64,000 nt of DNA from Aurelia coerulea (taxonomy: Eukaryota > Cnidaria > Scyphozoa > Semaeostomeae > Ulmaridae), in NCBI GenBank assembly GCA_039566865.1, contig CM076947.1:8811501-8875500 (forward strand). The letters run 5' to 3'. Position numbers and translations under genes: made by a program. Below are positions 2,915-42,277 of this stretch, piece by piece. Position 1 is the stretch's first letter. Each line of letters begins with the position of its first letter. The notes under the pieces are model-generated. The model saw nothing but the letters and a program-made list of their open reading frames with translations, made no database searches and was not told where the DNA came from.

Positions 2915-2935
2915 TGGACATCAAAAGATTTTGAG

Positions 2936-6294: not shown

Positions 6295-6437
6295 TGCTGC
6301 ACCTAAAACAAGCAGAAAAATTTGAAAGTGAAAGGATGACCTATCTTTGAAAAATTACCATTAAATTATAAAAATTGATGTTGATAAAAGACATGATTCC
6401 TATCACTCCCTCGATTCTTCTCAGGGTCTAAAAAGCC

Positions 6438-10781: not shown

Positions 10782-13700
10782 TTATTGGCCCCGTATTTCA
10801 TGGAGGTAATTCACCACTTCAGAGTAGACATCCATACCAAAATTTGCATCTACAAAGACATTAGGCACTGTCATAAGGAGCCCTGCTTCTTCATTCTCAG
10901 TTAAAACAATGGTTGATCTTGGAACCACAACATGATTATTTGTCCGTAAGTCTGGTACAGGCCCTTCTTCATCAATACCGTAATCTACAGTTGTTCTCTC
11001 CAAGAGGTCCACTATTGTTGACCCATTGCTACTCACATGTTGATAAAATCCTCTTGTCCAAACCTGCAAGGGTGACATATTACCAACTGTTCTAACTGGG
11101 TGATTGTTCCATTGTTGACAAAACATGCTCAGGCAATTGTTTATTCTTGGTTGGAACACATAGTGCAAGGCAAATAGATTACTTTCATTATCTAGATCCA
11201 GCAAGCTGACTGACTCCATGTAATAAAATAGATTTATAAAGTGCTCTGAGACATAGCGATACACATCGACCCACAGTCGCTCAATACGCTGATTATGTAC
11301 GGACAACCCAGTTAAAACTGGGTTAGAAGCAGTGCCATAGTGGTCTAGCATCCATCTAGCTACCTGAATGTTCTCTGTGCCATGGTCAGTTCTAATGCGG
11401 AGAGGACATCGAAACGATGCAATCGATTCTATGAATAGAGTATAGACAGTATATGCCTCATTGTTTGTGGAACAGTGAAGAAATGTTATGCAGCGAGAGT
11501 ACCCATCAATACCACCATGAATCACAAATCTCCACCGAATCATTTTATGATTTCCATCAATATGCCTGTAAACATCAAACAATTCATGAATATGTTTGAC
11601 AACTATAGGCAAATGTAACAGGCCCAGAGCATGAATTGAGTGAATGCACAATCCAAAGAGCGAAATGTTATAAGAGCCCCTAATAAGAGATTTGATTGAA
11701 AGTAGGCCCAAAAGTTCCCCCTCCCCTCCCCCCACTTGGATTAATTTGATAACAAGCTGCAGGAAATGATATTAATTTCATTTTGAAATTTTTGCCCATA
11801 AATTAGGACCACTGCTTATCCTTTTTGGAACTTTTCCCACCCCCCCCCCAGTTACGAAGAACACCCCTTATATTTGGAAGTTGTACAGCTGCCCTATATG
11901 TTATAGTAGAGCTCCTCAACTGATTTTCAATATGTGGCAATTTTTACAAAAAAATGCAAACGCTACGGTAGGGACAGCCCAAGATTGTTGTTAACCCTAT
12001 CTGTACTGGGCGATTTTTTAGGTATTTTATACTGGGGGGGGGGGGCGTTTTTGGCCCCCCCTCCCACTTTTTCTCCAAAATTACAAAAAATATAACAATA
12101 AGACTTACCCCTATTGTCCTTTAGACAATTGGCTATTCAAATATAACAATGACAATTAATAAGTCACGTGATTCGTTGCTAGGCAACCGAAAAACTGACA
12201 AAAATTGGAAAATATATACCTTCTTAACCGGAAAAATTCTATTTAATCAACTACTCAACCGATTTTCTCCAAATTTGTTTCAAATAGTAGGAAACATGTC
12301 ATAGTTCAAATATACATACTTTGCAAAATTGTTTAGTTTCTATTTTTAGCACAATTAGCCTTAAATTAGCCTTTTGTTGCATGCATTTACTTTCATCGCA
12401 GGTTTTTGCCAGTCCTGCCCTTTTATCTGGTAAATATAGACTCAAAATGAATCAAATTAATAAGATGAAGCAAATTAGACTAAAAAAAATTATATTTGAC
12501 ACTTCTTTATTAGGTAAATGACGTCATAAATGTGAATGACGTCATATATATTAAATTTTGCTGACATCAGCAAATATGAAAAAATTATATATCACATGAA
12601 AGTACTCATCAAATGCAATCGAATGGTGCATGTTTGAGATCGATCAAGCAAACGACACGAAAACTATGGACATTTTAAGATTTTTTTTGTTGACCACTCT
12701 CCAAATATGGTATTACTGTGGTCACATGATCAGAGGTAGAACAATGAAATGTTAAGAATTTAATTGCCTATGAAATTTGAGTAAAAGTCACCAAAACTGG
12801 TGGTTATATCTCTTGTCGTTTTAGTGTAATGCAGCAAAAACTGGTAGGGGGGGGGGGCGAAAAACGCACCCCCCCCCAGTACGAATAGGGTTAAATTAAC
12901 CAAATGCTATGTAGTTTATTTTCAGAATATGATGATTTGTTTCATGTCTTGCTATAAAATTACTTAATCATACTGAATCTCAGAAATGCGGGCTATTCCA
13001 TGTTTACTCTGTACAGGGAAATAGAAGTAAAATTCCAGGGGGTCTTTTAAAAACAATTTCTGGGGGGGGGGTCAAAAATTCTTAATGATGCTTTTCTAGT
13101 GAGTATAAAGATTTTTTAACAAATATTTTCCAGGGAGGTTGTCAAAACTATCTCCTCTAAGCACATGTGTTGTTCATCATTTCCGGATAATCAAATTTAA
13201 GTACCATTTCTAAGAAGGGGTAGCTGGACCTAACCGATAACTTTTTTCCAAGGGATGCCTATCTGACAAAAATCTTGCTTCCATCCCCCTGTATGGCTGG
13301 AAGATTTTGACCATGAATCCACATGAAACATGTATTATTTCACTTTCAAGACATGGTGAAACATGGTGTTTACAACATGTTTCACCATGTTTCAAACATG
13401 GTGTGTTTGCAAGGGATTGCTACAAAAGACATTATGGAGTTATAAGTTGTTTTTTAAACTGTGAATGGAAGAAGATATTACTGTACCATAATGCGTTTGG
13501 GCAAGGCACATTATAAACCCTCCTCCTTATTGCACGTCTTTGGGCCCTGAGTGCACGCCCCATGGGGTCCACTCGCAAGATTGATTCACGAACTCTCATT
13601 CTCTGGACAAAGACACCTCGCGCTCGAAGGGAACCAATGACCATTCGCTCACCAGCGTTTGGGCACTCTTGTATTATGTCCCTCATAATGTTATCTAGAT

Positions 13701-14373
13701 CTGCATCAGATAGATTGGTAAAATTGTCACTGCCGCCCACAGTTACAAATTCAGCACGTCGCCTTCGCAATGTCCTTTCTGAAATACCAATCATGTCTGC
13801 AATTTGGTTCCAACGAAATCCAATGCTACGCAGACTGATGACTTGTTCTTCAGAAACTGCGTAGCTTGGTCTACCCTGCAGTTCATTGTTTATTGTCACA
13901 GCATGCGATGTGCCACAACCAGCCTCTCGTAAATGAAAAAAACTTATTCGCTCAGCTATCCGAGTCCTATATGAATGTATGATGCAAAGGACTTCATCGA
14001 TGATGGATTCTATTTGAGTGAAAATAAGTTGAACACGATTGCAGTTAGAATCTTGCACAATTATCATGCACTCGGTTCTGTAAGATGTCACCAACTGTGA
14101 AAGAGCAATGCACCTCCTTGCCATCTCTTCGAGGACATGTTCTTCTCCAGAATACAAATGCCTTCCTACCTCCATAAGTGACCTTGCAAGTTCAGGGGCA
14201 AAATTTTCAAGGTCATCAAGGTATTCCCATGCCGTCGTACTTTCGACGACATAAGCGTCGAAGCAAAAACAAAGCACGAATAATAAGCTGAACCTGATAA
14301 GCTTGCACATGTTGAAACAGCACCCATAAAACTGGACTACTCTGCTTGCTGCTTGGTGTGTTTGGCTTGGCAT
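10782..14373 (-). CDS. Two-exon integrase (rve-type DDE) gene with HTH N-terminus
   Basis: This is a DDE integrase-like protein of an animal mobile-element family. Exon 1 is 14373-13487 and exon 2 is 11565-10782. The donor (TG|GTACAG) and acceptor (TTTACAG|GC) rejoin a Trp codon and give NALW-HIDGNHK, which is how I remember uninterrupted relatives. The joined frame codes about 556 residues. Exon 1 has a helix-turn-helix near GRPSYAVSEEQVISLRSIGF then WNQIADMIGISERTLRRRR. Exon 2 has the catalytic triad: Asp in GGIDGYSR, Asp in IRTDHGTENI and Glu in VHNQRIERLW. No lesion is visible. The first Met is uncertain; Mets further in would give a shorter N-terminus. I found no clear terminal repeats, so it may be a domesticated gene or an element whose ends I missed. 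Confidence 0.75.
11995..12890. mobile_element. TTAA-flanked MITE inside the integrase intron
   Basis: It starts CCCTATCTGTACTGGG and ends CCAGTACGAATAGGG, with TTAA on both sides (11991-11994, 12891-12894), the duplication used by piggyBac and Kolobok elements. Poly-G/poly-C runs sit just inside each end. Palindromic GACGTCAT words lie near 12520-12545. It has no coding capacity. Confidence 0.8.
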
Positions 14374-16229
14374 TACGCCATTCCTTGGTGTGTTTGGCGG
14401 CTTTTTGGCGCGAAATGCACTTGTGAACGAGGCTCAAGCAGTCTGCAGATGGCACTTGTGAACGAGGCACGTGACTGATAGACAGTGATAGACCGATTGA
14501 TATGTGATAGACCAAAGTCTTATGAAAAGCGCAGATAGTACTTTAAACGAAGTGAGAAATATAGTACTATGTGAGTTGTCAAAGTACTTTGAAATTGTGA
14601 AAGTATTCCAAATGTATAATTGGTGATGAAATTAAAGAAAAAGTCTACGAATTGGAGGAATGTATTGAAATTATATAGATTAGTAACGGAAATGTAGAGT
14701 AAGTAGAGTAAATACAGAGAAAGTACTTTAAATATTGGACTAAGTATTTATGTCCGCTTTGGCGCGCCATAGTGACAGCTCATTCTGTTCATTGGCAAAT
14801 ATTGTCTCTTGATTGCATAGACTAGATGCAAACAAGAAAGGTGATGTAGCAATACTGGGGATGTAACATAGCTCATTGAGGCCATAATCATTTGATGTTA
14901 AATCCAACAATTTTTTGACATTATTAATGGTTGATGAACACAATTTTTCCATCCTTAGGTATACAGTGTTTGATGTAGGAAAAACTGTTTCGCTTTGCAG
15001 TAATCTTTCTGAGGGCATGTTAACCAACTCTATACTTGGTTAACAAGCCACCACCTAAAAGCCAATTAGTTGAAGAGAAGCTATCAAGAATTCAAAATAT
15101 CCATAGCAGCTGTTTACGTGTAAAAAAGAACAATTGAAGATGTGTCCACTCTAAGGTGCACCTAATCAAAAGGATTAGTTAAAGGCCAACTAATAATTAC
15201 AGGAATCAAGGGTAAACTGATTGTGATGATACAGTACATGTCATGTTCACAGTAACATAATTTGTCTGTCAAATAATTTTCTTTATAGTTTCTTAACCCT
15301 ATCAAGGCAACCCCCCCCCCCCCGTTTTGGCTTTTGTTCAGTGGATTTTAACCAAGTGCACTTACTGTATACTGTACAATGCTAAAACTTTCTCACTGTT
15401 AGGTTTTATCCTTCTTGTAATTAAAAAATTAACTTAATTTGAATTTATATGTCGTTCATAGAATAAATGGCGTTTAGAGAATACAAATTCAGTTAATACT
15501 GAGTTTAAATAATACGAATACGAGTTCAGCCTATTGCATCACATCTAAAATGTTGACTGGAAAATTAGGCCGTTTCTTTCTAATGCCATCTAAAGCTTGA
15601 ATTTGAGCAAGTTTATCGATCTTCTTTTCGACATGAAAGCGCTGTGGTAAAAGTGCAACCAACATCTTAAAATACAATTTAGCCATTAGGCAGTAAAATA
15701 AAACAAAGGTTTTGAAAATCAGTTCATTGGTTATGGACATGTAAGCAATCAAACAATAATACATCATTTTGGGACACACGGTACAATGATAAAAAGTAAA
15801 TGTTACATCTTCAACAATAATCTGACTAATTCAGTCATTTAGCATTATTGGTTGTAAAAGCGTATAGGGTATAGCGTATGAGTCATTATCTGTTTAATAG
15901 ATTTTAGTTTGTTCAAATTTCAGATTTTCATGAATAGCAAATAGAGCAAATATAATTTTCTGGGCTAGAGTGCAGTTTAGCAGGCGGCCCCTGCGCAGTA
16001 ATGTTGCATTTGACAGGATTCAAATTCAAATAAAAGTTGGTTTGAGACAAGCGTTCTTTCTTTTCATGCAAACATCAACTGATAAACAACGGGGGTTTGG
16101 GGGCAGTAGCCCCCAATTATCAAGGAAATAAACTACAATTAAAATACGATTGAATCATCTTGACAACAACGCTATAGCTAAAAGTCATCTAAGCTGTTCG
16201 TGCTGCAGTCCAAGTTGGTTTTTGGAGGA
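14374..16229. other. No gene recognised; solo TTAACCCTATC end at 15294
   Basis: A 95-codon minus-strand open frame ends at 14740 and another of 82 codons at 15531, without motifs I know. TTAACCCTATC followed by poly-C at about 15294-15322 matches the end of the TTAA-flanked MITE family, but I see no partner end. Confidence 0.4.
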
Positions 16230-17910: not shown

Positions 17911-18105
17911 GGGGAACACATACACAAGTAGCTCGTCTTTCAAATCATTGTATTTCTTATATTCTTTCACGGCCTCAAAATTGTCACCCTTAGGAAGAAA
18001 GTGCTTTTTTTGCTTGGCTTTCTCGTTAGCAATTGCCTTCTTATTTGCAACTCTTTTGACACTGCTTTGGACATCATTCCACAATTTTCTTTTAGACAAC
18101 GCCTA
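17911..18105 (-). pseudogene. Lys-rich coding fragment of an unrecognised gene
   Basis: An open minus frame starts SKRKLWNDVQSSVKRVANKK and continues through KHFLPKGDNFEAVKEYKKY to DELLVYV. It is highly charged and helical in character. It stops where the RT fragment begins, so it was probably broken by that insertion. Function unknown. Confidence 0.35.
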
Positions 18106-18109
18106 GAGT

Positions 18110-18540
18110 TCCTCATAAAACCCTTATGTAAAACCCTCTTTTATGGGTTTTTCCAAGAACCCTTCCTTTGGGTTTTTATAAGAACCCCATGGATGGGTTT
18201 TTCAAAAAACCTTTTGAGTGTGTTATAGCAACCCCAAGGTGTTTTCAGCAGCCTACAAACACGCAACCCCTAGAGGTGCTTATAAAAACCCTTCTCAGGG
18301 GTTTTTATAGAAACCCTAAGCTTGCTTTATAAAAACCACTACAGGTTTTTCTGGATGTGTTATAACAACCCATGGGGGTTTTTCGGTAGCGTACAAATAC
18401 GCAACCCCTGGAGGTGCTCTTAAGAACCCTTCTCAATGGTTTTTAAAGAGACCCTTAGGTTGCTTTACAAAATCCCCAGGGGGTTTTACTGGATGCGTTA
18501 TAACAACCCATATGGTTTTTTTAGCAGCCTACAATAGGCA
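18110..18540. repeat. Tandem repeat of about 140 bp, continued at 19148-19260
   Basis: Units begin near 18249 and 18390, and another begins near 18527. Each contains CAACCCCTGGAGGTGCT and alternating AAAACCC/GGGTTTTT words that could form small hairpins. The array is cut at 18540 by two stacked MITEs and resumes at 19148 with the expected AATAGGCAACCCCTGGAGG. Confidence 0.7.
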
Positions 18541-18722
18541 GCATAGGAATCATTTGTTGTACATAGCCGATTGGATTGACGATAGGTCAAATTTAGAAAA
18601 ATCTTCAAGGGTTTCTTTTGTCTCGCTTTTTAGCCATCTGATTGGTTGGTGAAAATGAGGCTTTGGCGGTTTCCACCATGGGCCACAAGCAATCGGCTAT
18701 GTACGGCGAATGATTCCTATGC
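18541..18722. mobile_element. 182-bp MITE with 33-bp TIRs and an 11-bp target duplication
   Basis: The ends are GCATAGGAATCATTTGTTG... and its inverted partner CGAATGATTCCTATGC, 30 of 33 bases matching. TACAATAGGCA precedes it (18530-18540). The same 11 bases follow it once the next MITE is removed (18723-18724 plus 19148-19156). A 9-11 bp duplication is typical of Mutator-like elements. Confidence 0.75.
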
Positions 18723-18724
18723 TA

Positions 18725-19145
18725 CAGTAAATCCCCCCATTTAAGAACCTAAAAAAAAGGACCTACAGGCCTGTTTTCCTAACTTATGCACCTTGTAATT
18801 AAGAACCTGTTTGAGTTTGGTGAAAAATATGTTCTTATAGCAGGGGTAGCAAAGTTGATTTTGGATTGTCAGTGTTAAGTTCATTTTTGTCCCCGTGGGC
18901 TTTTAATGTTCGAATCGCCTCCCCTGCTGTTTGAAAGCTTAGTATTGGGTATTAGGTATATTATAACCTTTCCAAAACAAATAGTAGGGCTGAAAATCAT
19001 TGAAGAAGGTTCCAAAATGGCCTACGCAAGGTACTCTTCAAATAAGAACCATTTTACCTTGAAATTTGGCTTGGTACCTTTAGAATAAGAACCTATTTCA
19101 GCCTAGCTCTCAAAAAAGTATGTTCTTATATGCGGGGATTTACTG
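18725..19145. mobile_element. TA-flanked MITE next to the 182-bp MITE
   Basis: It starts CAGTAAATCCCCCCATTTAA and ends GTTCTTATATGCGGGG then ATTTACTG, with TA on both sides (18723-18724, 19146-19147). Inside it repeats AAGAACCT. It belongs to the same family as 7251-7719 and landed in the TA of the target duplication of its neighbour. Confidence 0.8.
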
Positions 19146-19156
19146 TACAATAGGCA

Positions 19157-19521
19157 ACCCCTGGAGGTGTCAGCAAAACCCTTGCCATTGGTTTTTATAA
19201 AATCCCGTAGGTCGGTTTATAAAAACCTTTGACCACAATGGTTTTCAACGAGAATAAACCTTGTTGGTTGTTTTTAAAACTTCAAATGAGCTTTCAATAC
19301 CAAACAAACAACCCTTTTTGAAACTTTTCAAGAACATGAAATCGGCAATTCACCAAATTATCAATATGGTCAACTGTGACGGAAAACAATGGATCTTGAA
19401 TAGAACGAATAGAATGCCCCTCATGCCATATTCTCAATTGCCACGCCACGCCCCTGGTTTGCTGTTCTAGTAAAATAGCAAAATGACCAAGTCCAATGAA
19501 TCATCATGCGCAAAAATTGCA
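19157..19521. other. End of the 140-bp repeat, then no feature
   Basis: The tandem repeat fades out by about 19260. The rest, up to the Kolobok insertion, has no supported feature. Confidence 0.4.
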
Positions 19522-19698
19522 TTAAAGGCCTTATGCAATGAAAAATTGCCTTCCGATTTTTGTTCGTATTTTCAAAGACAAAAATCCCGTGAAACGATTG
19601 CAAAAAACCAAATTGAAATATCTTTTATCGTTCAAGAGTTACAGCGCAGGAAAGTTTCTGTTTTGATAAGTTTTGCCGGGAAAAATTTGAGTTTGGCG

Positions 19699-19706
19699 TG
19701 ACGTCA
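19699..19706. promoter_or_regulatory. CRE-like palindrome upstream of the transposase
   Basis: TGACGTCA, the classical CREB/ATF half-palindrome pair, lies 45 bases before the transposase ATG within GCGTGACGTCACAGTTATGA. The same block is present, inverted, before the second gene at 26534-26541. Confidence 0.5.
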
Positions 19707-19750
19707 CAGTTATGATCAGACAAGGAACCAGGAAGTATATCGTATACAAG

Positions 19751-22700
19751 ATGGCTACCTCGACCGAAAAAACGAAGTCTTCAGCTAGACGTGGTGGGAG
19801 ATCTTGTGTTGCCGGTGGGCCAGGTGGCAGTAGCTGCAAAAATAAGCAATTTACGGAGGATATATCTATCCACACTTTTCCGAATAAAGATCTAGACTCT
19901 TCGAGATACTGGAAGTGGGTTTCCTTCGTTCGGCGGCATAGGCCTAACTGGTCACCAACCAAGTCGTCGATCCTCTGTTCGGTTCATTTTGAAGATAGTT
20001 GCTTCAGCATGCGAAGGGATGTTGCTAAAGAGCTTGGGATTAGGAACAAGCTTACTAACGATGCAATACCAACGATCGATGTTGCAAACACCGTTATGGA
20101 AACAGAAGAGCTGTCTGACAGGAGCAGGAGACGAGTAAGTTGGCCCAATGGGCCTAATTTTCAAGACTGCATTTTCGATGAATCATTATTTTCTCGTTAT
20201 TTTTTTTCTCGATATTTCATGACTTCAACATTGCCTATCATTCTCTTTCCTATCTCTCTTTTGCTGGCCCCTTCCTTACTTGCTAAAATTGTTTTCACAG
20301 ATATTAAGACAATCATTACCATCGACTTCAACGAGCACAAACGTTTCAGAGGAAGCAGAATTTGTTGAACCAGATCTCGAGCCTGTGTCATCACCAACCA
20401 CAGAATGCAAAAAGTGCCCCGTGTTGAAAGCAAAGCTGCTGCACTGCCAGAAAAAGTTGTGGCTATTAAAAAAGAAAATTCAATCCCAGGGATCTGCTGA
20501 CACTCATGATCGTCAGGAATTTGAGGTAATCAATTTTTCATCACGATAAATTTATGTTTTGAGTCATGTACTGTAGATCTCTCCTTCTTGCAAAATATTT
20601 GCTGTCTGCCAAGAAATTAATATGTGGCAGTGGTAGAAACTACATGCATCCAAAAGATAAGAAACAAAGTAAGAAACTTTAAGTTCGAACAGGCTGAAAT
20701 TTTCTCGTGAAATTAAGAAACTTTTAGTAGTATCTGCTTATCCAAGTTTCTTATGAAAGAAAAGGCGTGTGGTGAAGGAATTTTTACTGTGAACATGGCA
20801 CATAAATTATGATCAGCTGATTATACTATTGAGATTTGATGATAAATCAAGATAGATTACTAAATTACAAGAAGATCTTGTTTTATTCATTCTCTTTCCT
20901 CCCTTATGCAGTTGCAAGATGACCACGGAGAAAGTGTAGATTACGGAGACAAGGTGGCAGATTCTACTATGGAAGATTCCGACATTGAAATGGAGGAAGA
21001 AGACACTGATTGGAGTGAACAAGAAGCTTCAGCTTTGTTGTCGGATGATGATGATGATGAAATCAATGAAAACGAATCAAAGTACAGAGTAAGGTAATGT
21101 ACAAAAATAAGCATTCAGTTCTTTTTATTAAACATATTTTAGGTCAAAGATGAAGACAGTATTTAATGAGAATTTGCCTATTCACTTTGACAACATTCTC
21201 CTTCCAATAATAGACAAAATTTTGTTTTCTGAGATTTTGCCATAATTATATTGCGTGGTTTCACAATCAAATCTCTTTTGGACAAATAGATATTTTTGTA
21301 TGAAACAAATCTTTATTGAAATTCTTTTCATTTTCAGAGTTGAGCCTGACACCAAACCCGCAAATGAGCCAAAATTTGTTGTATTCTTCAGAGTGTTGTT
21401 AAATTTGTTCAGTTTATTTTGTTTCAATTGTAAATATGAAAAACCAAAAGTGCAGATTGTAACAAAAGGATCAATGGCAACTGTTGTTCAAGATTGCAGT
21501 CATTGTGGAAAGAAATTTAAATGGCACAGTCAACCTATGGTCTTCGGAAAGTATCCTGCTGGCAACTTAATGATAAGTTTTGGAATTTTAATGTCTGGAG
21601 TACGAATAAGTCAAATACTCCTAGCTTTAAAACACAAGGGATTGCATGCAATTTCTCCCAGGACCTTTTTCTACCACCAGCGCAAGTTTCTGTTTCCATC
21701 TATTCTCATGCAGTGGAGGAAATACCAAGCAAAGTTTGTAGAAGATTTGAAACAAAATGATGATGTTGAATGGTCAGGAGATGGTACATTCGATTCTATG
21801 GGGCACAATGCCAAATACGGAATGTATACAATGTTCTGCAATACAATTTCCAATTTCCCTGGTGCACTTTAAACTGCTGCAGGTGAAGTATAATTGGAAC
21901 CTGCTAAAAACTCCTGTTTTAGCAAGTTCTAACAGGGCATGGGGTGAATGAAGTTGCTCATGTTTCATTAGGTTTGAGAACTTGCACAGCATTAGTTTCA
22001 TTGGGTACTTGCAAAGCAGCTATATTCAAGTCAAAAAGCTACTTGGCAAGAAGTTTACAAATCAAATCTCAAACACCATACAACAAAATTAAAAAATATA
22101 CAATTTGGAACAAGTTACTGCTGTATGACAAATGTAGTCTTACAGACAGCAGTAAGATGTTTCAATTTGCAAATTTTGTCAATAAAGTATGAATTTATTG
22201 GTGCAGATAACATGCTGAAACAAACACTATTTTTGAAGTCTTGTCTACAAATTTTCTCCCAAGCCTTCAAAATGTCTCAGGACGTTCTGATCTCAAATAA
22301 TATTGAATTTAAGGAAATGTTTCACTTCGATTTTAGTCCAATGAAACGGGCAGCAGCAATGCAATGGAACTTGCTGGCGCAAAGCGGTGCTTTGAATTCC
22401 TCAAAACTGCTGGATTGAAAATATCTGCTTTCATCAGTGATCGGCATCTAGGCATCGCAAAATGGATTTGAGAATCCGAGACAAAAACAGTGCACTACAA
22501 TGACTTGTGGCATGTTTGCAAGGGTTTGACAAAGCGGATTTTGAATGCAGGAAAAGAACAAGGAAATGAAATAATCTTGGTTTGGCAAAGGGCAATAAAA
22601 AAGCATTTGTATTGGTCGGCAGCATCTACAACTCAAGGTTTCGGAGATCTTATAGTTGCAAAGTGGAAGTCATTTATTAGACACATTGCGGACAACCATA

Positions 22701-24760
22701 CTGATCATTCAGACCCGTTGTATGAAGAATGCGCTCATGCTGAGCTATAAGAACGTGACTGGATATATGTTGGTAAGTAGCGTTCTGATTTCACTTCAAA
22801 AATGCAGGTTAAATGAAGCAATTAGCTTGAAATTAGCAAACAGGTCCAAAATGAGGTTAGCAGACCACTTTTTTATCCACAGCACATTGTATTGTATGAC
22901 TAGCTGTCTTGGGAATGGTTACGTTATCAATTGTTAGAAATTCACTTTTGCATTTTTCACAGGGACTCAGCCATATGATCGCCTCAGTGGCATCATATTG
23001 GACTCGAGAGTGATTGCTGATGTGAGAAAGCTCTCATCTGATGGACAAACAAGTTGCTTGGAGGGATTTCATTCCCTGCTTAACCATTGGCACCCAAAAA
23101 TGATCCATTTTTCATGGCTTGGTACGATTTGCAGGTAAGAAAGAATCTTTTTCCTACAGTTTTAGCAATATGATGCCATCATTTTATATAATTTTTGTCA
23201 GAAGTTGAAAGTATACTTCTGTCACAGTGATAGAACTTCAAAAGGTTAGTTACATGCCTTTAGAACTCCCTTACCAGAATGTCTATGACCTAGGATGGTA
23301 GACTGCCACAAAATTAAAGCTAAGATGTTAGAAATGTTCAAAGGAAACCAATTGCCCAATATCAACTATGATGAAATCAGTTAGGTTTATAAAATCTATA
23401 CAGCAGCAAGCCAAACAACAATGCAAACATGATTGTTGGCTGTGCTAGCATCCACACAACTGACTAAAGATTATATGTAGAATTACTGTGTCTACAATCT
23501 AAAGGATAAATCATGAGCTTCCTCAATTACTATACAATAATAAACAAGAATTTCCAAATTGTACTTTAGGTTTTATAGCTAGGCCCCCATTATTGTAAGG
23601 TTAGTTCTAATGAAGCAAAAAGGGAATGATAAAGCCAAGTGTCTATTTTTTGAACATCCTAATTATGATGTAAAGAGTTTTTCTAATTCTAAAGGCATAC
23701 CCTGGCTATGTGCCATTTCAACGAGAACGTTTTCAGAGAGCAGCAGAAAGCACTGGATGGATCATTGTACTTCAACGTCATTTATCCAAAATACAAACTT
23801 GGAGATGAAGTGGTACGAGAAGTGGCTATTCCACCTACCTATAGTAAGTACAAATGTGTGACGGTATGTTTTGAACAAAACCTACACAAAATAAAGCACA
23901 GCATCTACAATTCAGTTTTTCAATGGGTTCATTTTTCTAACAGACTAAACTGCAAATAATTCACAGACTATTTCATAAATGCTGGAATAGAGAAAATATG
24001 TATCAAAGTTGGTTCCTTTTCTTTTGCTGCTAAATCTTCCGTTGCATTTAATACAGTGGTTTGTGTCGTCAAATTTTGGATGTGAAATTAAGCTTGGTCA
24101 TTTTCACTTCTTTAGATTATGTTTCCGATATCAAGAGCACCATGTTCCAAAGTACACTTGCAGAAATGAAAGAATTGACTGATTCTTACAAGCAAAATGA
24201 GCCAGAGCCATTGAATAGGCAATTTGAGAACAGGAGGTCCAAGGGTGATGCTATTGACCGTCATCTGGAAAGAAAGCAGAAAGTGACTGTGTTATTTCCA
24301 CCAGGTAATTAATACATCTTTGAGGAAATGTGTGCATGTGGATGGAAAAAGTTCTCAGTGAACTGACCACAGGCAGTAAATTTCAACACAAAGGCAAATT
24401 GTGTGACACGGTATCCAGCACCTATCACTTCTCTGTTTGGATATGCACATATTTCCTCACACGATGCCCTCTTGATGAAAGTGCCAAATGCTACTTTCTC
24501 TTTTTGTAAACTGCCAGGAAGAAATTTCTTTCAGCTCTAACTTTAGTGGAAAAGGCAAATGTTTTTACTGCATACTCTCTTTTTCAGCAAAAGAGCGAGA
24601 TGAAATGCTGAAAAAACATGAGGAGCAGCTGCAGAGAGAAAATGCTGCCAAATCTGGGAAAAAGCCATGTGCTCCACGCCATTGCCGCAAATGCAATAAC
24701 CCCCTGAAAGGTCATCCAAGGGGCAAATGCCCCACTACTGAAGACCAGCCTGGTCAATAG
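19751..24760 (+). pseudogene. Kolobok-like THAP transposase gene, nine exons, three lesions
   Basis: Exons by splice signals and frame: 19751-20134, 20301-20525, 20912-21093, 21338-21882, 22337-22772, 22963-23134, 23695-23843, 24116-24304 and 24588-24760, all GT-AG with matching phases. Exon 1 holds a THAP zinc finger (SSCKNKQ, ISIHTFPNK, WKWVSFVRR, LCSVHFEDS). Exon 2 ends in a Leu/Lys coiled coil and exon 3 is very acidic. Exon 4 has the first catalytic block (DVEWSGDGTFDSMGHNAKYG), exon 5 FISDRHLGIAKW and HYNDLWHVCKG, exon 6 the Glu block TSCLEGFHSLLNHWHPKM. The last exon ends in a C-x2-C-x6-H-x4-C zinc knuckle. Lesions: one extra C at 21857-21859, a TGA at 22469-22471 (CGA to TGA) and a TAA at 22748-22750. 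The otherwise perfect structure suggests it died recently. Confidence 0.8.
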
Positions 24761-25054
24761 GAATAATCTACTGCAGACATGTTTCATTAGCTTGTTCCTG
24801 TTGATGAAAATAGAAATGGCTAAATCATGACAAATACTGTACTGTAAAAATTGTTTGTACACTTTGATGTAACTTATATGAGATATACAATATCATATAC
24901 CGGTATGATCTTCATCAACACATATCAGCCATGTCTATGTTCATGAACAAGTACATGTATCAGTACTGTAGATAAAAATTGCATTTTTACCTTTATTCAT
25001 TATAGAATACATATATTTACAATTGAAGCATCAAGTAAAAGATGTAATTGTACC

Positions 25055-26414
25055 TCAAGCTCTATCTTGAGCTGATAAGTATCCCTTTGATTCATGTGTG
25101 GGATACTGGGATCTGAGATGATGGTATATGCAAGCTGGTAAAGGGCGGGTGTTATCCCATCCCATGTAACCAAACAGGTATCGTGCAACCCATCGATAAC
25201 CAACTGCTCTCATATACCTGAAAAAAGAATATTTCTCTTCAGATTTCCCCAAATTGTACACATGTTTACATCTGAAAGATAAAGATATGATAGGTGGGCA
25301 AACTATATGATTGTCTGAAAACAGGAGTTGCAAGTCTAGAATTAAATTGTGGATGTATGGGCAAAAGATTTGCATGGGATGTTTCTAATTAATGGGTGTC
25401 AGGTTATTAAGGACTCTTACCCATTTTTGGTCTGGCCAGCTCGTTGCCTGTACTGTCTGCCATCGTTGCCTCTCAATAGCGGACCAACATGGGTGAGGAC
25501 AACATTGCTTGTCATTGACTTGTAATCATTGAACAAGGCAATGCAATTAATATCATCGGAAAGTCCCTCAAACACCACTTTCCCGAATGCCTCATGCACT
25601 TCTCTACAGCATCGATGCTCCAGTGCTCCATTCAAACGTTCTATATGGCAGCAACCACAAGTACACCTGGTAAAAAATAGCAGCAGACTATAGTGTTCAA
25701 CCCAATGTAAATAACTAATGATAGCAGTGTGAGACATACTACTGCTGGCCAATGAAATTCAGAAACTGAAATTAGCTAACATCCAACTTGGTACTTCTGG
25801 TTCTAGAATACTCCTGTCCTTCTTGGCAGGCATTTGGCAAATCTAAAGGCTAGTAGGAATCATTTCAAAAGTCGGACTGTTGTATCTTGTTATATAACAT
25901 TTGGAGGTAAAAATGAATTATCAATAAACGAGAAGTCAAAAATTGGTGGTAATTCCAAAAGTATAGCAGATTTAACGGGCTGTGAAATTGAAAAATACCT
26001 TATTACTCCTGTGTGTTTCTTGGTATGCACTGATCCTATTTAGGCCAAGGACTGTGTAAACACAAAAAGCCTTCATAATACAACAGGTTGTGTCGACCCG
26101 ACCCCTCTTGTTTGTTTGGCAATGAAAGCTGAATTAGGATAAACGTGCTAATGACTTACTTACCATTCTTCTACTCGAGTACGACCTTCGTATCGATCAG
26201 CCAAAGTTTGACGAGAGAGGCCATCTTTGTCTTCCCCATCATCACGTCGACGTACTGCAGCGTCACCTTCCTTTGGCCTAGCAAGGGGCTCGTCTTGATA
26301 TGGAACAGCAGCAGCTCCCAGGCAAACAACTCCATAATCTTCTTCACTAGAGCTCTCTGGTGAAGTGTTCCTACTAGAAATACTCTCAGATCCACTTCTG
26401 TTACTGTCCGACAT
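25055..26414 (-). CDS. P2X7-receptor-type cytoplasmic (ballast-like) domain protein
   Basis: Three exons, 26414-26164, 25666-25421 and 25217-25055, join across GT-AG introns to give 219 residues with no lesion. The N-terminal 85 residues are Ser/Glu-rich and disordered-looking (MSDSNRSGSESISS...). The split codon at intron 1 gives EEW-CTCGCCHIERL, then HRCCREVHEAF. Further on come RYMRAVGYRWVARYLFGYMG and RPLPACIYHHLRSQYP then ESKGY. This Cys-rich W.C.C..C...CC plus R.PACI...R..YP pattern is what I know from the intracellular C-terminal domain of P2X7 receptors, which binds zinc and has stand-alone relatives in fish and invertebrates. There are no membrane segments, so it is not a channel. 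It starts about 290 bases inside the right end of the Kolobok element and points towards the transposase. Its role in the element is unknown; nucleic-acid or zinc binding is a guess. Confidence 0.8.
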
Positions 26415-26533
26415 CGTTGTCAATATAATACAGTGTATTTACCGAGGAATCGAAGGCAGGCAGGTGTAACAAAATTCTTGAAGCAGTCTCCACTCCAGCG
26501 GATTCATAACAGCGTGGGATGTGATCATAATTG

Positions 26534-26541
26534 TGACGTCA
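26534..26541. promoter_or_regulatory. CRE-like palindrome upstream of the P2X7-like gene
   Basis: TGACGTCA within TCATAATTGTGACGTCACGG, 120 bases upstream of the ATG at 26414 on minus. It is the inverted counterpart of the block at 19699-19706. Confidence 0.5.
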
Positions 26542-26749
26542 CGGCGCAAAAACGATTTTTCGCATGACCTGCCCAACTTTGCGGGGCAAAAAACCCTAGT
26601 TGACCACCAGAAACTGAATAAAATTATACATCAATAGAGCAAGCAAAGATTGAATTTTATGAAAAATAGAAAAAAAGTGGGTCAAAATTTTCATTGCATA
26701 ATGCCTTTAATCATGTGAGATAAAATCCTATATATACGATGGCCCAGAA

Positions 26750-26900
26750 GGCTCAGTTCAGTTTTGTTTTTTCGCGGTTCAGTTTTGTTTTTTGGCAGTT
26801 CAGTTTTGTTTTTTGGCAGTTCAGTTTTATGTTTTCGCAGTTTAGTTTTGTTTTTTCGCAGCTCAGTTTTGTTTTTTTGCAGTTCAGTTTTGTTTTGTAC
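26750..26900. repeat. 21-22 bp tandem repeat AGTTCAGTTTTGTTTTTT
   Basis: About seven units of CAGTTCAGTTTTGTTTTTTGG with small changes, starting 40 bases outside the right end of the Kolobok element. The frames open through it are repeat translations, not genes. Confidence 0.85.
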
Positions 26901-27790
26901 CCTCCCCCCCCCTCTGGGGACCAATTTTCAAAACTGAACCATTGCTTGGACAACTATATGCAAGCTTGAAACCCATAATTCATCTTGCGAATTCTAATTC
27001 ATCTTGCAAGTTCTAATTCATCTTGCTTGTGTTTATGCAATATTCTGCAATCATGAACTCACACATCATCTCAAAATAGTTTAAGAAATTTAAACTTTGC
27101 TACTTTCTGCAGAGATCACTTGAAAGTCATAGAAGATTTATTCAAACCCAGTCCCAATGAAGAAATCCCAGTTTCAACTGCATTTGCATTTTTAATGAAA
27201 AAGTTGAGCATGACAGTTTGAGTGTGGTTCTAGAAAATGTGCTTGGTGGTTTGATGCAGATGGTTTTTTCTGGACAAATCGTAAGGAAAAAGAAAAGAAC
27301 AACAGATGGGAATGGAGCAAACAGAATATGTAAATTTGATCTTGTCTATCTCAATTGATCAAGTCGTTTTCACAAGGCTTTATGTCAAACAAGAAACAAT
27401 TGGTTCAGACAATCAATCTCTTCGATCAAGTTTCAGATTTAGGTCAAAATGCATTTGTCATGCTGCCAAACAATTATTGCCTTAATAGGCCATCTGCTGT
27501 TATCCCATATCGTTCACTTCCATTGTGCACCTCTGAAATCTAGCATTTATCTAATGAAATCACAACTTTGTTAGATTGCATTTCAGATTATGAAAAGTTC
27601 CCATTTCCACCAGGCGCAGTTTCTTCGCAAACTGGAGTTTTCTTTTTGCAAAATGTTAATCTAATTTTGGATTATCGACACGGATTATGATAAAGTCTAT
27701 AAAACCCAGACCGACATTCTATGGTTATTTGACACCGCTTTCCAATAGTCCGTAAATTTGATGTGATGCGCAGCTATTGGCAACCACATA
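26901..27790. other. No gene recognised; possible decayed coding sequence
   Basis: Three copies of AATTCATCTTGC... occur at 26980-27030. From 27115 to 27540 one frame reads as protein-like sequence broken by several stops, but I cannot name it. Confidence 0.3.
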
Positions 27791-27796
27791 AACAAA

Positions 27797-28541
27797 AATG
27801 GCGGTAGCAATGTCTGCCCGTGAGGATTGTTGTGTCATCCATTTTGACAATAAAGGGGGAGATACCAGAATAGTTTCAGCTGGGACACGAAGACGTTGCT
27901 AGAAAGGAATGGCTCAGTTTGCCCATTGAAAGTTCACAGAGCTTTCAAGAAAATCTTTGGAATTCATTCCCTCTGGACACAAGCAGCACTAAGAAACTTA
28001 GGCCCATTGAATTTGAACTGTCATGTTTCTTGTTACCCGGAGGGGGGGGGTTACATAACATATTTAGGGTACGGGTATGTGACGCATATATGGGTGGGCT
28101 TTTAGGCCCAAATTTCTCTAAACAAGGGTCTTTTTCGGCAGATTTTCCATAAAAATGGGTGGGTATTGCTGAAATCTACACACAAAAAGTCGAAAAATTG
28201 CCAGTTTTCCGCAAAAATACATCATAGAAGTGGGTATCAAGGCAAGTTTCGGTAATTAGAAGAGGGTAGCTTTCTCAAAAACTGGGCGGCATACCTCCGT
28301 CCATCCACAAGTCATGTACCCCCCCCCCCCCTCCCTCCCCGGGTGGTACCCTCTGTTCACAAGCGCTAAGAGAGCCAGAATTGATGGTAAGGCAAAGACC
28401 AGTACCAACGATGATTCACGACGAAGGTCAGCAAGAAATGGACCAATATCAAGCACATTTTCTGAAAGACCAAAAAGAGATGTTCTTCCAGCTTTCTACT
28501 TGATTTGCAAAGTACCTGGTCCCATTTGGATTACTGATAAG
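27797..28541 (+). pseudogene. Exon of a host-like gene, interrupted by a MITE
   Basis: The ATG at 27797 opens MAVAMSAREDCCVIHFDN but meets a stop near 27900. Shifted frames continue to NLNCHVSCYP at 28038. After the MITE the frame resumes as LFTSAKRARIDGKAKTSTND, then SARNGPISSTF and PGPIWITDK, and stops at a donor (AAG|GTATTG, 28541). SCYP-LFTSAKRAR with GPIWITD recalls a family common in cnidarian predicted proteins whose function I do not know. The next exon is 34514-34731, across ISL2EU element B. Confidence 0.5.
28039..28343. mobile_element. Poly-G MITE inserted in the host-like exon
   Basis: It has a G-rich left end followed by TTACATAACATATTTAGGGT and a right end CAAGTCATGTA plus poly-C and GGG. 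Flanks TGTTACCC (28031-28038) and TGGTACCC (28344-28351) look like an 8-bp duplication. The element at 39197-39488 is the same family in the opposite orientation. Confidence 0.7.
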
Positions 28542-28773
28542 GTATTGATTTCAAAAATTCATTTGACAGTTAAATATCTATCGTTAAATCGTTATGTCCG
28601 TTTTAAATATAGGTTCCTTGGAGTGGCCAGAAAGCATCCTTTGCAATTCAGCCAAAAACGTTTCCAAAATTGGCCCTCTGAAACTCACAATTTGTATAGA
28701 GATTTTTCACGGTGACGTCACGGCTTATTGATAACGAGGCTGACGCCATGTTGGTGTTCCATTTTATACAAGC

Positions 28774-31587
28774 ATGGCGGACAGCAACAAAGAAACTGAC
28801 CGTGAAATTGAAAGTAATCACAATTTTAATGATTCTTTGCATTCGAAGAATAGTGTACCTCTGTCAGAATATGCTAAAAATCTCGAACCACACGTAAAGC
28901 ACCGGTATATGGAGAAAATATCGCCTCTAGGCGTCGATCCATTGCTACTTCCAGAGAAGACACTTGATCCAGGATGTTTACCACCGGTTGAGGCCACTGA
29001 TTTGTTATCGTACTTTGTATTGGATACAAGTTACTACACCAAAAGCCAGTTCAAAGCATTTCGGAGCTTAGAAGCATATAATCAGATGGTTTCAGGATTT
29101 GTCACCAGTATTCAAGGAAAAGTCATTGGGAACTACTATGTTGTCATTGGGAAAGTCAGGCATTCCCAGAGAATGAACGAGCCTCCAGTCCAAGCCTGGA
29201 TCATTACTGCAAAAGAAGGTACAGTCATTTGTGCACACTGTATTGGATGCATGGCTGGACTGGGGGAATGTTGCTCTCACATTGCAAGTTTACTCTTTTA
29301 TGCAGAAGTCTGGACAAGACTCAATGGAAAGCTCACTTGTACTCAAGTGAAATGCTCATGGATCCTGCCCACCAATGTCAAAGAAATTTCGTATTCCCCT
29401 GTTAGGAACATAAATTTCAAGTCTGCCAAAAAAATGAGAAAGATCCTAGATAGTGCTGTCGACTCTGTTGGACCAGTAAATGATCCTCAAAAACCCCAAC
29501 GACCTCGTAAACAGGACATGCCCTCCCCAACTGAAAAAGAGATGCAGGACCTATACAAGGCACTGAACAACTGTAAAGTGAAACCTGTTGCTCTCAGTCT
29601 TGTCCAGCCATATGCCAAAGAATTTGTTGCAAAGAGTAGAGATATTCCAACCATTTCTGATCTCTTTCATGAGAGCTATCTAGAACTTGAGTATCATGAC
29701 CTTCTAAGAGTATGCAGCTCAGTTGAAATCTCAATCACTGATCAAGACGTGCAAAAGATAGAAGAGGACACAAGGGACCAGGCAAAAGGAAATAGTTTTT
29801 TCCAGCACAGGGCTGGAAGGATCGGTGCATCTGCTAGCAAAGCTGCTTGCCATACTAATCCTGCTCAGCCAGCAAAGTCACTCGTAAAATCAATTTCTTA
29901 TCCAAACATTTTCCAGTTCAGCAGTGAAGCAACTGAGTATGGAAAGAGCCATGAGGAGGCTGCAATTAAAGCATTTCAGGCCGAAATGATCAAACATCAT
30001 AAGAATTATGTTGTAAGCAAATGTGGAACATACATAAGTAAAGAAAATCCTTGGTTGCTTGCAACTCCTGATTTCATGTCAGTTTGTGACTGCTGTGGAA
30101 AGGGATGTGGAGAAATCAAATGCCCATTTTCCATTGATGGCCTAGATTTTGATGGATACCTTGAAAAGAAGAGCAGCTGCCTTGCAAGAAATGATATGCA
30201 AATAGTTTTAAAGCGAGACCACCAGTACTATTTTCAAGTGCAGCAGCAGTTGTTTGTCACGAATGTAGAGTTTTGTGACTTTGTTGTTTGTGCCTTTTCC
30301 AAAGCTGGTGAAATATTGTATGTTCATGAGCGAATTTATCCTGACACAGAACACTGGAATTTGCAAGTACCAAAGCTAAAATTTTTCTGGCAGTACTGCA
30401 TTCTGCCGGAAATCCTTGGCAGATGGTACACAAGAAAGTGTGAATCAATAAAACCTGCTGAAAATTGCAAAGCAGTATGTTTTTGCAGAACAGAAACAGA
30501 GGAGTCAACAGTGAAATGTGGTAGTCCAGAGTGTCCCATATCAAACTATCACCCATCATGCCTTAAAATTGACAAATTTCCCAAAGCATGGTTGTGCCCA
30601 AATTGTCACAAAATAGCCAAGATCAAAAAGAAGAACAAGGGAAAGACTGACAAAGTAATAATTAAAAAGGACTCTACTCAAGAAAGGGCCCTCAAGATGT
30701 CAGCAATATGCAAATGTGGAATTAAACCAAAAGCATCAGACAAACTAATTGAGTGCCATAGCCCCACATGCAATGAAGGCAAATTCTTCCATCTGGAATG
30801 CCTTGGCTACAAGAAAAGGCCAAATAATAGCAAGTCAACATGGAAGTGTGACAGTTGTCGCACAAACAAAAATGACAAAGAAATAAGTCCTGATGTTGGG
30901 GTCATAATAGATAGCAATGACAAAGAAATAAGTCCTGATTTTGGGGTCATAATAGATATCAATGACCTTGATGAGGATATAATTGATAAAGAAATGTTTG
31001 AAGATGATGAAGTTCGAGTGACCAAGACAACAATTGGGCAAGTTAAACGTTATGAGGCTTTAGGTTCACTCACTGAGCAACACTACCATTTAATAAGTTG
31101 TTCTAGTGGATGGCTAGACTGTGATATTATTCAAGAGGCACAGGTTCTGCTACAGAATATTCATCCTGGAATTGCTGGCTTTCAAAGACCAACATTAGGA
31201 CCAGTCCTAAATTTCGAAATTGTCACCAGCGAATTCATCCAGATTCTACATGTTGGAAATTCCCATTGGGTGTGTGTTAGCTCAATAGGTTGTGATCCTG
31301 GAGATGTTAACTTGTTTGACAGCCTCTTCAGAAACATTGTGATAAGTGAGGTTGAAAGTCAAGTGAAGTGTTTAGTCGGAGAGGAATATTTCAAACAAAT
31401 AAATCCTGTGTCAGTGCAACAGCAAGCTAATGGCAGTGACTGTGGCGTTTTTGCAATTGCATTTGCAACATGTTTGGCATACGGTAATGCACCAGAGACC
31501 AGAAATTTTGACACAAATCAAATGCGGAAACATTTATTGAAATGCTTGAAGTCAAAGTCAATGGAAATTTTCCCAACATTGGACTAA
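28774..31587 (+). CDS. SWIM-YqaJ-PHD-PHD-Ulp1 protein of ISL2EU element B (937 aa)
   Basis: The start at 28774 is the first ATG inside the element (GCATGGCGGAC). Residues about 149-175 form a SWIM-type zinc site (HCIGCMAGLGECCSHIASLL). Residues 340-510 are the YqaJ nuclease core: HRAGRIGASASKAAC, YGKSHEEAAIKAFQ, ATPDFMSVC, GEIKCPFS and YYFQVQQQLFV. Two PHD fingers follow at about 564-611 and 643-695. A 48-bp tandem duplication encodes DKEISPD.GVIID twice. The C-terminal 110 residues are a C48 (Ulp1/SENP-like) cysteine protease: His831 in NSHW, Asp849 in NLFDS, Gln884 and Cys890 in QQANGSDCGVFA, a complete triad plus oxyanion Gln. It would combine DNA cutting, histone-tail reading and SUMO-type deconjugation in one nuclear protein. 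Confidence 0.88.
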   Translation: MADSNKETDREIESNHNFNDSLHSKNSVPLSEYAKNLEPHVKHRYMEKISPLGVDPLLLPEKTLDPGCLPPVEATDLLSYFVLDTSYYTKSQFKAFRSLEAYNQMVSGFVTSIQGKVIGNYYVVIGKVRHSQRMNEPPVQAWIITAKEGTVICAHCIGCMAGLGECCSHIASLLFYAEVWTRLNGKLTCTQVKCSWILPTNVKEISYSPVRNINFKSAKKMRKILDSAVDSVGPVNDPQKPQRPRKQDMPSPTEKEMQDLYKALNNCKVKPVALSLVQPYAKEFVAKSRDIPTISDLFHESYLELEYHDLLRVCSSVEISITDQDVQKIEEDTRDQAKGNSFFQHRAGRIGASASKAACHTNPAQPAKSLVKSISYPNIFQFSSEATEYGKSHEEAAIKAFQAEMIKHHKNYVVSKCGTYISKENPWLLATPDFMSVCDCCGKGCGEIKCPFSIDGLDFDGYLEKKSSCLARNDMQIVLKRDHQYYFQVQQQLFVTNVEFCDFVVCAFSKAGEILYVHERIYPDTEHWNLQVPKLKFFWQYCILPEILGRWYTRKCESIKPAENCKAVCFCRTETEESTVKCGSPECPISNYHPSCLKIDKFPKAWLCPNCHKIAKIKKKNKGKTDKVIIKKDSTQERALKMSAICKCGIKPKASDKLIECHSPTCNEGKFFHLECLGYKKRPNNSKSTWKCDSCRTNKNDKEISPDVGVIIDSNDKEISPDFGVIIDINDLDEDIIDKEMFEDDEVRVTKTTIGQVKRYEALGSLTEQHYHLISCSSGWLDCDIIQEAQVLLQNIHPGIAGFQRPTLGPVLNFEIVTSEFIQILHVGNSHWVCVSSIGCDPGDVNLFDSLFRNIVISEVESQVKCLVGEEYFKQINPVSVQQQANGSDCGVFAIAFATCLAYGNAPETRNFDTNQMRKHLLKCLKSKSMEIFPTLD

Positions 31588-32710: not shown

Positions 32711-34246
32711 TTAATCAAAAGGAATTATAGCTGGGCAAAGATTGATTAAGGCTGAACAAACTCTCAGGATCTTGTCTATAATAGGTATGTCTTGGCCAGA
32801 GCCACAAGTCAGGAAAGTGGTTGGCAGAGTTGCTTGAAGTATTGTATACTTTTGACGAAGGATCCCAATCACACGCTCCACATGAATACGAACATTTGCA
32901 ATTCCTCTTGTTTTTTCCACATCTATTGGATCAAGCTGGCTCTTGCCCCTCGTAAATGCTGGTATTGTTAGCTTGGCTTGGTAGTACCAAACACTTTCCT
33001 CAATGGTAAATCCCCGGTCTGCCATAACAACATCCCCAGGTCTTAGAAGCTTGAGAATACCACAATTTTCTGTTAAAAATTTGTCAGATGTTCTACCACC
33101 CCAAGCTTCAGAAACAAAGCTAATTGTGCCTTGTGGAGTGATTCCAATAAGAACTTTCACAGTGTTGTGGTGTTTATAATTAGAGAATGTTTGTGCTCTT
33201 GCTAGAAGATTTGACGGCCTGTCAATGAAAACTTCAAAACAGTCAATTATGACAGTGGTTTTTTTTCCAAATGAATATTGGAAACATTTTGGCATTGTGG
33301 CAAGTAATGCCTCTCTTTCTGGCCACACAATGAGCGAACTTAGCCTAGAATCCATCAGGCAGATCCAAGATTGAAAAATCCTGGACACGGTTGCTACAGA
33401 TATTTCAAAGCGATAGCTTAAATCTTGAAATGGAACGTTCAGTCGCAATTTCATCAAAGTTAGAATAAATTCTTGAAAGCTGCTCAATGCTGATGACTTC
33501 CTTGTATCATAATGCTTGATAAAATCAAAGACAGTAAGCAATACATCATATGTTGGTAAACCAGTGTAGAATCGAACCTTAGCATCATCATTCATAAAAT
33601 ATGACTCATCAAATGCTTTTGATCTGATTGTAATGTTACTCATGGATTCATTGAGGTCTTTAGTATCTGTCTCTGCATCACATGTTTCCTTTTCCTGGCC
33701 TTTTCCTTTGTGCTCGCTAGAAGCTGCAGGCTCACTGTCATCATAATGTTCCCCAACATTTTCTTTATCAAAAAGGTCTCTTATAGGTAAGCCTGGTTCA
33801 TTAACCTTCTGCATTTTTGCCTGAATTTCTGCCTCGATTACTTCATTAAATCGCTTTCTTCTTTCAACTGCCCTCGTTGCTCTGTCTTCTACACTTTCAC
33901 GATCTTTGGCTTTGATTCTTGTATGTCCAAGAGACAGGGATGGAGCCCAATCAACATTGTGCCTATCCCAGTCAGCTGCCGCCTTCCCAGTAACGAAGTG
34001 ACGGCTACAAACGCGATCGTTGCTGAGTTTTTCGTCCGACAGATCATCTCTGCTTATGACCGAAATCCATTTTCGTCTCCTTTCTGTTGTAAGGTCCTCC
34101 ACTATCTTTCCCTGGTGCTTTACTATGGCCGGAACACGAAAGAAACTTGCATTTTGGTCTTTCTCCGTCTCCCACTGCTGCTGCTTTAGACTCTTTTTCT
34201 TTCCACTCTTAAAACCGCAATCAACAAACAAACACAGCACCATCAC
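32711..34246 (-). CDS. THAP-domain DDE transposase of ISL2EU element B (511 aa)
   Basis: The N-terminus is a THAP-type zinc finger with a long insert ([38 protein letters not shown]). A charged linker of about 130 residues follows ([20 protein letters not shown]). The catalytic domain has an HTH-like block ([19 protein letters not shown]), Asp in [11 protein letters not shown] at about residue 334, GGRTSDKF, Asp in VVMADRGF at about 409, and Glu in [10 protein letters not shown] at about 457. It is clearly homologous to the element A transposase but diverged. The frame is intact. It ends about 1.1 kb from the converging YqaJ gene; the hAT-like MITE and untranslated sequence lie between. Confidence 0.88.
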
Positions 34247-34513
34247 TACTCTAATACGAAAACTGTTTAAAAGCTATTCAAATATGTAAATATAATAAGC
34301 AGATATGTTAAAAGTTGAGAATTATCCGAGAAAACAACAAGTTCACGTGCGTACACAGCTTTCAGCTCTATTGTTTGGAACACCAATATGGCGGATAGCA
34401 ACCGTTGCGATGGGCTGAGTCACGTGACTGAAAAGACTCTATATGGTTACAATTTTTAGGAATTTTGCTATTTCCCTCTTTATTTATTTCTATATTAATT
34501 TGTATTATTTTAG

Positions 34514-42229: not shown

Positions 42230-42277
42230 GTTTTGCAAACGTCAGCCGTTGCAATTGTAAGTAATACTCTTTAGTCT

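Follow-up and report, generated by a model that had tools for sequence, protein, structure and literature searches.

Kolobok elements are DNA transposons that are excised at their inverted repeats by the transposase and integrate at TTAA. As described by Kojima and Bao in 2022 (PMC9587614), the Kol0 elements of this superfamily encode a second protein, KolX, which is similar to the ballast domain of the P2X7 receptor and has seven cysteines, and P2X7 originated from the fusion of a P2X4-like gene with KolX. The pairing itself is therefore already known, because KolX stands beside the Kol0 transposase in that article; here and below, statements on published work refer to the consulted parts of the cited papers. 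The locus analyzed in this study lies in a stretch of 64,000 nucleotides of Aurelia coerulea (GCA_039566865.1, contig CM076947.1, positions 8,811,501 to 8,875,500 of the forward strand), which is called the window. Positions 19526-26706 of the window are a DNA transposon. It is very probably a recently mobile, Kol0-type Kolobok element with two genes, a THAP-DDE transposase and KolX, the latter consisting of an acidic tail and the putatively zinc-binding ballast domain that vertebrate P2X7, according to PMC9587614, acquired later. The ends, the TTAA duplications, the gene structures, the near-identical copies, the ballast fold with its cysteines, the convergence of the two genes, and the between-family purifying selection were all computed in this study.

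The element shares with Kol0 the TTAA, the 5'-RR...YY-3' ends, the DDE triad with C/DxxH, which is found in five superfamilies including Kolobok and P, and a KolX with the ballast and seven cysteines, and the published host list includes cnidarians (PMC9587614). Its probable membership in Kol0 rests on KolX as the second gene and not on a tree. Neither the copy census nor the convergence test nor the values of omega (the ratio of nonsynonymous to synonymous change) reported below were found in the consulted parts of that article. The P element also combines THAP with an RNase H-type catalytic core. Its transposase requires guanosine triphosphate (GTP), and an internal domain binds GTP and positions the transposon end (PMC7776569). 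Whereas this domain is built into the P transposase, THAP was the only Pfam match in the transposase studied here, which may nonetheless hold an unrecognized insertion domain.

On the receptor side, Rump 2020 (PMC7016195) proposed that the P2X7 tail is a captured ancient domain, and the strings "transpos" and "thap" occur nowhere in its main text as consulted. A paper on Clytia described the tail as a fused domain and the Acropora "P2X7" as lacking it (PMC10620158). The ballast binds guanosine diphosphate (GDP) (PMC9859053, PMC7016195). The nanor and ZCD proteins are, like KolX, short and end in a zinc-cysteine domain, and they were treated as host genes with fewer than 10 per species that do not form large families (PMC7016195). 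In contrast, the domain is found here at 110 places or more, 59 of which were shown to lie beside a transposase.

Ends, genes and copies of the element

The copy searches covered the genome of the window (574 Mb, 294 contigs). An 80-nt probe from the left end gave 12 matches including the window, and the other 11 were retrieved. Four of them (L009-L012) are full-length relatives that align end to end with the window copy, and the five copies differ pairwise by 0.28-0.86%; L011 has a 164-nt insertion and is otherwise full length. The features of the element are as follows, where the exon borders of the transposase were mapped from L012, in which the gene is open.

19522..19525, no strand: left TTAA target-site duplication (TTAA also beside L009-L012)
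19526..19547, +: left terminal inverted repeat, 5'-AG... (pair of 27 nt including TTAA)
19697..19718, +: left subterminal inverted repeat (22-nt pair, 95% complementary)
19751..20134, +: transposase exon 1, THAP domain (Pfam PF05485, E 1.2e-12)
20301..20525, +: transposase exon 2 (L012 gene model)
20912..21093, +: transposase exon 3 (L012 gene model)
21338..21882, +: transposase exon 4, first catalytic D (4-nt frameshift near 21854 in the window copy)
22337..22772, +: transposase exon 5, second D and DxxH (stops at 22469-22471 and 22748-22750 in the window copy)
22963..23134, +: transposase exon 6, catalytic E (L012 gene model, protein alignment)
23695..23843, +: transposase exon 7 (L012 gene model)
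24116..24304, +: transposase exon 8 (L012 gene model)
24588..24760, +: transposase exon 9 with stop (L012 gene model)
25055..25217, -: KolX exon 3, C-terminal ballast helices and stop
25421..25666, -: KolX exon 2, zinc-cysteine part of the ballast domain
26164..26414, -: KolX exon 1, acidic N-terminus, conserved YxDEPLA stretch and start of the ballast
26522..26543, -: right subterminal inverted repeat, partner of 19697-19718
26685..26706, -: right terminal inverted repeat, ...CT-3', partner of the left terminal repeat
26707..26710, no strand: right TTAA target-site duplication

In the inverted-repeat search, the terminal arms (19521-19547 and 26685-26711) pair over 27 nt with 93% complementarity, and the subterminal arms (19697-19718 and 26522-26543) over 22 nt with 95%. 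The TTAA duplication and the 5'-AG...CT-3' termini of the window copy and of L009-L012 agree with the 5'-RR...YY-3' termini given for Kolobok (PMC9587614). Long terminal direct repeats of the KolobokP type (approximately 450 or 660 bp) were not seen in 19300-26900 among the 20 largest of 21 repeat families. A tandem 21-bp repeat occurs at 26754-26900, near the right end of the element.

In L010, L011, and L012, the element is bordered by TTAA at either end, the flanks differ from one another over the 15 nt compared, and no match to the flanks of the window copy was found in the three loci. L009 on C22 and the window copy on C5 share approximately 1.4 kb of flank at either end, each flank being interrupted by gaps, and the duplicated stretch, 18022-28210 of the window against C22 around 7556510-7563700, is 96-99.8% identical. 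The common flanks indicate that these two copies are a single insertion that was later duplicated. The remaining seven left-end matches are truncated, rearranged, or interrupted within the stretch retrieved; one of these seven, on C17, has KolX just beyond this stretch. L017, L018, and L019 on C9, which are alike in structure, have the left end joined to an inverted piece of the transposase, and no KolX was found among the matches of these deletion derivatives.

The transposase of L012 is open throughout, with nine exons and 820 amino acids. In a 12-row alignment in which some rows are partial, D416, D483, D504-x-x-H507, C580, and E627 (L012 numbering) are invariant, which gives the DDE triad of Kolobok with C/DxxH between the second D and the E. 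H564, H569, C580, and H582 are invariant in the same alignment and may form the zinc finger with a conserved third C that Kolobok transposases have between C/DxxH and the E. Relatives of the transposase are found in Rhopilema (62% identity), corals, amphioxus, oysters, and a fish. The window copy cannot make the full transposase: it has a 4-nt insertion near 21854, which is private to this copy, two in-frame stops at 22469-22471 and 22748-22750, both in exon 5, and a missense substitution at one of the invariant alignment positions. L009 has one of the exon-5 stops in common with the window copy, and L010 and L011 have separate exon-5 lesions of their own. Further frame breaks at 21882-22337 were considered as lesions and rejected, and this segment is best read as an intron: the insert is present in the five copies and spliced out in the L012 model, and homologous proteins read straight through the junction without it.

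KolX converges on the transposase. Its exons in the window (26414-26164, 25666-25421, and 25217-25055) encode 219 amino acids without an internal stop, both introns are of phase 2 with GT-AG borders, and AATAAA lies downstream. An earlier note on this DNA had described TTAA duplications and matching ends that enclose two convergent genes, three lesions in the THAP transposase, and an undamaged three-exon second gene with correct splice phases, all of which agrees with the structures given above.

KolX and the ballast domain of P2X7

The likeness of the second gene to the P2X7 ballast, also put forward in the earlier note, was supported. KolX scores 26.7 bits against the Pfam family P2RX7_C, above the gathering cut-off of 23.5. 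In a profile search of the PDB, three sequences were obtained at E up to 1, all of them P2X7, with a best value of 0.0056. The structure model of KolX matches P2X7 393-590 with 20-22% identity over 127-134 aligned residues, so that the ballast fold is present in the predicted structure. The seven predicted zinc cysteines, C85, C87, C90, C103, C104, C125, and C195, are each kept in 31 or 32 of 32 KolX-type proteins, a set consisting of 27 proteins picked by hand from the 138 returned and five from the genome of the window.

Convergence on a cysteine-rich zinc fold, instead of common descent, would be compatible with this low identity and with two single-query results: a phmmer search of the PDB with one KolX sequence and a Foldseek search with the KolX model each gave no match at E 0.001. 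However, the Pfam score exceeds a curated cut-off, P2X7 alone was matched by the PDB profile at E up to 1, the model covers P2X7 393-590, and the seven cysteines and the positions of R546, Y550, R551, and R578 of P2X7 are kept in 28-32 of the 32 proteins. A convergent fold is thus extremely improbable.

According to the model and the alignment, KolX shares with the P2X7 ballast the fold, the seven cysteines, and the positions of R546, Y550, R551, and R578. The full guanine-nucleotide site, as given in Rump 2020, is not present: R546 is kept in 31 and R578 in 28 of the 32 proteins, whereas H547, R574, and K583 are kept in none. KolX also differs from P2X7 in having no channel part; it is a separate protein of 219 amino acids, and its N-terminus is acidic with a short, nearly invariant motif. 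No fusion of P2X with KolX was found in this genome, where the sole P2X locus found (C7:612400-618745) has no listed KolX place nearby.

Among proteins, the nearest matches belong to Rhopilema, to octocorals, and to other records of scyphozoans or corals. In the KolX tree, the Rhopilema protein P0002 groups with P0008 of the octocoral Dendronephthya, and L052 of the present genome groups with the Rhopilema protein P0001, both with support of 100. KolX families common to distant cnidarians may reflect either old coexistence or horizontal transfer.

Pairing of the two genes and selection

Two protein searches with KolX scored the best 150 of 643 and the best 150 of 789 candidates, and the search with transposase exon 5 scored the best 150 of 378, so that all counts of places are lower bounds; one analysis of the first KolX search took 109 of 155 rows. 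KolX exon 2 was matched at 110 or more distinct places. The pairing test used 110 hand-compiled places with exon 2 or with fused exons 1 and 2, omitting rows with exon 1 or exon 3 only, and 106 of the 150 exon-5 rows, omitting the weakest 44. At 59 of these 110 places, exon 5 of a transposase lies downstream on the opposite strand within 12 kb, at a median distance of 3,635 bp. The control arrangements gave one place for the opposite strand upstream, and 0 and 0 for the same strand on either side. In the reverse direction, a convergent KolX was found at 49 of the 82 best exon-5 places.

Five 10-kb stretches from other families (L050-L054) were read. Exon and gene order are kept in L050 (KolX 38-67% and transposase 34-64% identical), where KolX lacks intron 1, and in L053 (38-56% and 25-62%). 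L052 is a second, different element with perfect ends of 19 nt, TTAA, and an open KolX. The KolX exons are open in nearly all of the approximately 10 copies of its family, the exceptions being a stop in one exon 3 and a copy without a listed exon 2. A KolX-only nonautonomous family, suggested by the lack of exons 5-9 in L052, was rejected; L052 is one internal deletion, because exon 5 is kept in 7 of the approximately 10 copies (C9:1186656, C16:19873387, C22:6360818, C1:2388385, C2:18357038, C19:11153209, and C22:2833405).

The values of omega were obtained for the families at hand, which are not a random sample. For KolX, the final fit to five families, covering 131 codons from exons 2 and 3, gave an omega of 0.064 (a rerun gave 0.074 at its stored checkpoint), with a log-likelihood of −1941.6 against −2083.9 at omega 1, which is 142 log units worse. 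Ten sequences gave 0.123 (−2025.9 against −2143.5, 118 worse), and three families gave 0.097 (−1295.0 against −1354.6), where the transposase of the same three families gave 0.017 over 421 codons. These between-family values are rough, because synonymous sites are saturated.

Several observations weigh against the reading of a maintained two-gene element. Among the best-scored candidates, no transposase exon 5 was found near 51 of the 110 KolX places, and no KolX at 33 of the 82 strong exon-5 places. No THAP exon was found in the stretches of L050 and L053, L052 retains only transposase exons 1 and 4, L054 only exon 9, and in the 10-kb stretch of L051 no transposase piece was found; TTAA ends were searched for in L050, L051, L053, and L054, and none was found. 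The KolX model is weak over the first cysteines, where blocks 81-100 have a pLDDT (predicted local distance difference test) of 55-58. The selection signal comes from the comparison between families alone, in which synonymous sites have reached saturation. In the window family itself, KolX has an omega of 0.52 for exons 2 and 3 of seven copies, which is indistinguishable from 1 (log-likelihood −707.2 against −708.6 at omega 1), and comparison of the window KolX with each of three intact relatives gave 4-5 nonsynonymous against 0-1 synonymous differences.

Five of nine copies in the subfamily have a damaged KolX. L023 has an altered splice acceptor, L027 has lost its stop, L028 has a stop, and L025 and L026 have lost the start and have a stop; the gene is intact in L020 (the window copy), L021, L022, and L024. 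In a sister subfamily, L038-L040 and L054 have stops in KolX. The chance that all three lesions of the window copy fell in the transposase is 0.49 by coding length alone, and with five of nine copies damaged, the intactness of the window KolX is no evidence of selection. It looks like a neutrally drifting gene that is yet unbroken. The difference between the between-family and within-family values, together with the damaged copies, therefore indicates selection between spreading lineages and decay of resident copies.

The near-neutral evolution within the window family, the damage in five of nine copies, and the three deletion derivatives without KolX among their matches are what a passenger without benefit, or a host gene caught between TTAA sites that occur by chance, would also produce. 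This explanation can hardly hold, since the borders are the same in 5 of 5 full-length copies, the convergent order recurs in L050 and L053, distant families whose KolX has no more than 38-67% identity, the 59 of 110 convergent places stand against 0, 0, and 1 in the controls, and omega between families is 0.06-0.12. In its trapped-gene form, which the earlier note had itself set as the alternative, it is refuted by the shared borders, the convergence, and omega. Two further questions raised in that note have a divided answer: the second gene is carried by the five full-length copies but was not found among the matches of L017-L019, and purifying selection on KolX is seen between families but not within the window family. 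Its overall interpretation, a Kolobok-type transposon carrying a P2X7-type ballast gene, is supported.

The window is dense in mobile elements. An open reading frame for a YqaJ-type nuclease at 2837-4663 (+) converges with one for a THAP and DDE_Tnp_4 transposase at 4900-6354 (−); both are long and open, and the pair looks like a second, different two-gene DNA transposon. A second such pair consists of a frame of 947 amino acids with YqaJ and an Ulp1-type protease domain (Peptidase_C48) at 28744-31587 (+) and a THAP and DDE_Tnp_4 transposase facing it at 32711-34273 (−). An integrase-core protein (rva_4, E 1.6e-69) lies at 10782-11771 (−), an open reading frame matching a helix-turn-helix family just under the cut-off at 13432-14433 (−), a LINE-type (long interspersed element) endonuclease/reverse transcriptase frame of 1149 amino acids at 42275-45724 (+), and a separate reverse transcriptase frame at 48843-50276 (−).

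Proposed role of KolX

By analogy with the superfamily, the transposase would excise the element at its inverted repeats and reinsert it at TTAA, with KolX acting in trans as an accessory factor in transposition. This accessory role is likely, because successful lineages keep KolX beside the transposase. KolX may serve as a partner of the transposase, as a DNA or chromatin adaptor, or as a nucleotide binder. The selection on KolX between families as a separate, converging gene would also fit a separately regulated protein that serves the element outside cut-and-paste, for example, as an inhibitor of host silencing or a regulator of the transposase, and we consider that its acidic N-terminus with the nearly invariant motif could bind a host protein; such a role is unlikely.

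A more specific form of the accessory role, which must be regarded as quite improbable, is that KolX is a guanine-nucleotide-binding subunit of the transpososome that would supply in trans the function of the GTP domain of the P element, and that P2X7 inherited the pocket when it captured KolX. It is suggested by the GTP requirement of the P-element transposase and the binding of GDP by the P2X7 ballast. It is weakened by the fact that KolX lacks three of the five nucleotide contacts that Rump named in P2X7. If true, it would account both for the retention of KolX next to the transposase and for the unusual GDP-binding tail of an ion channel. No published proposal of KolX as a nucleotide subunit of the transpososome was found, going by leading titles and the openings of abstracts.

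The results also bear on the statement in Rump 2020 that the domains did not expand into large families (PMC7016195). Two markers linked to ZCD genes across animals in that paper may be pieces of the transposase. The paper also mentions two Ixodes proteins in which the zinc domain is combined with a TolA or "TAHP" domain; should "TAHP" be a slip for THAP, the protein concerned would be a gene model that merges the transposase and KolX.

A transposon origin for the P2X7 tail has already been proposed. The KolX places, numbering at least 110, the young copies in which the examined exons of both genes are open, and the selection between families provide natural material for testing what the domain did before its capture.

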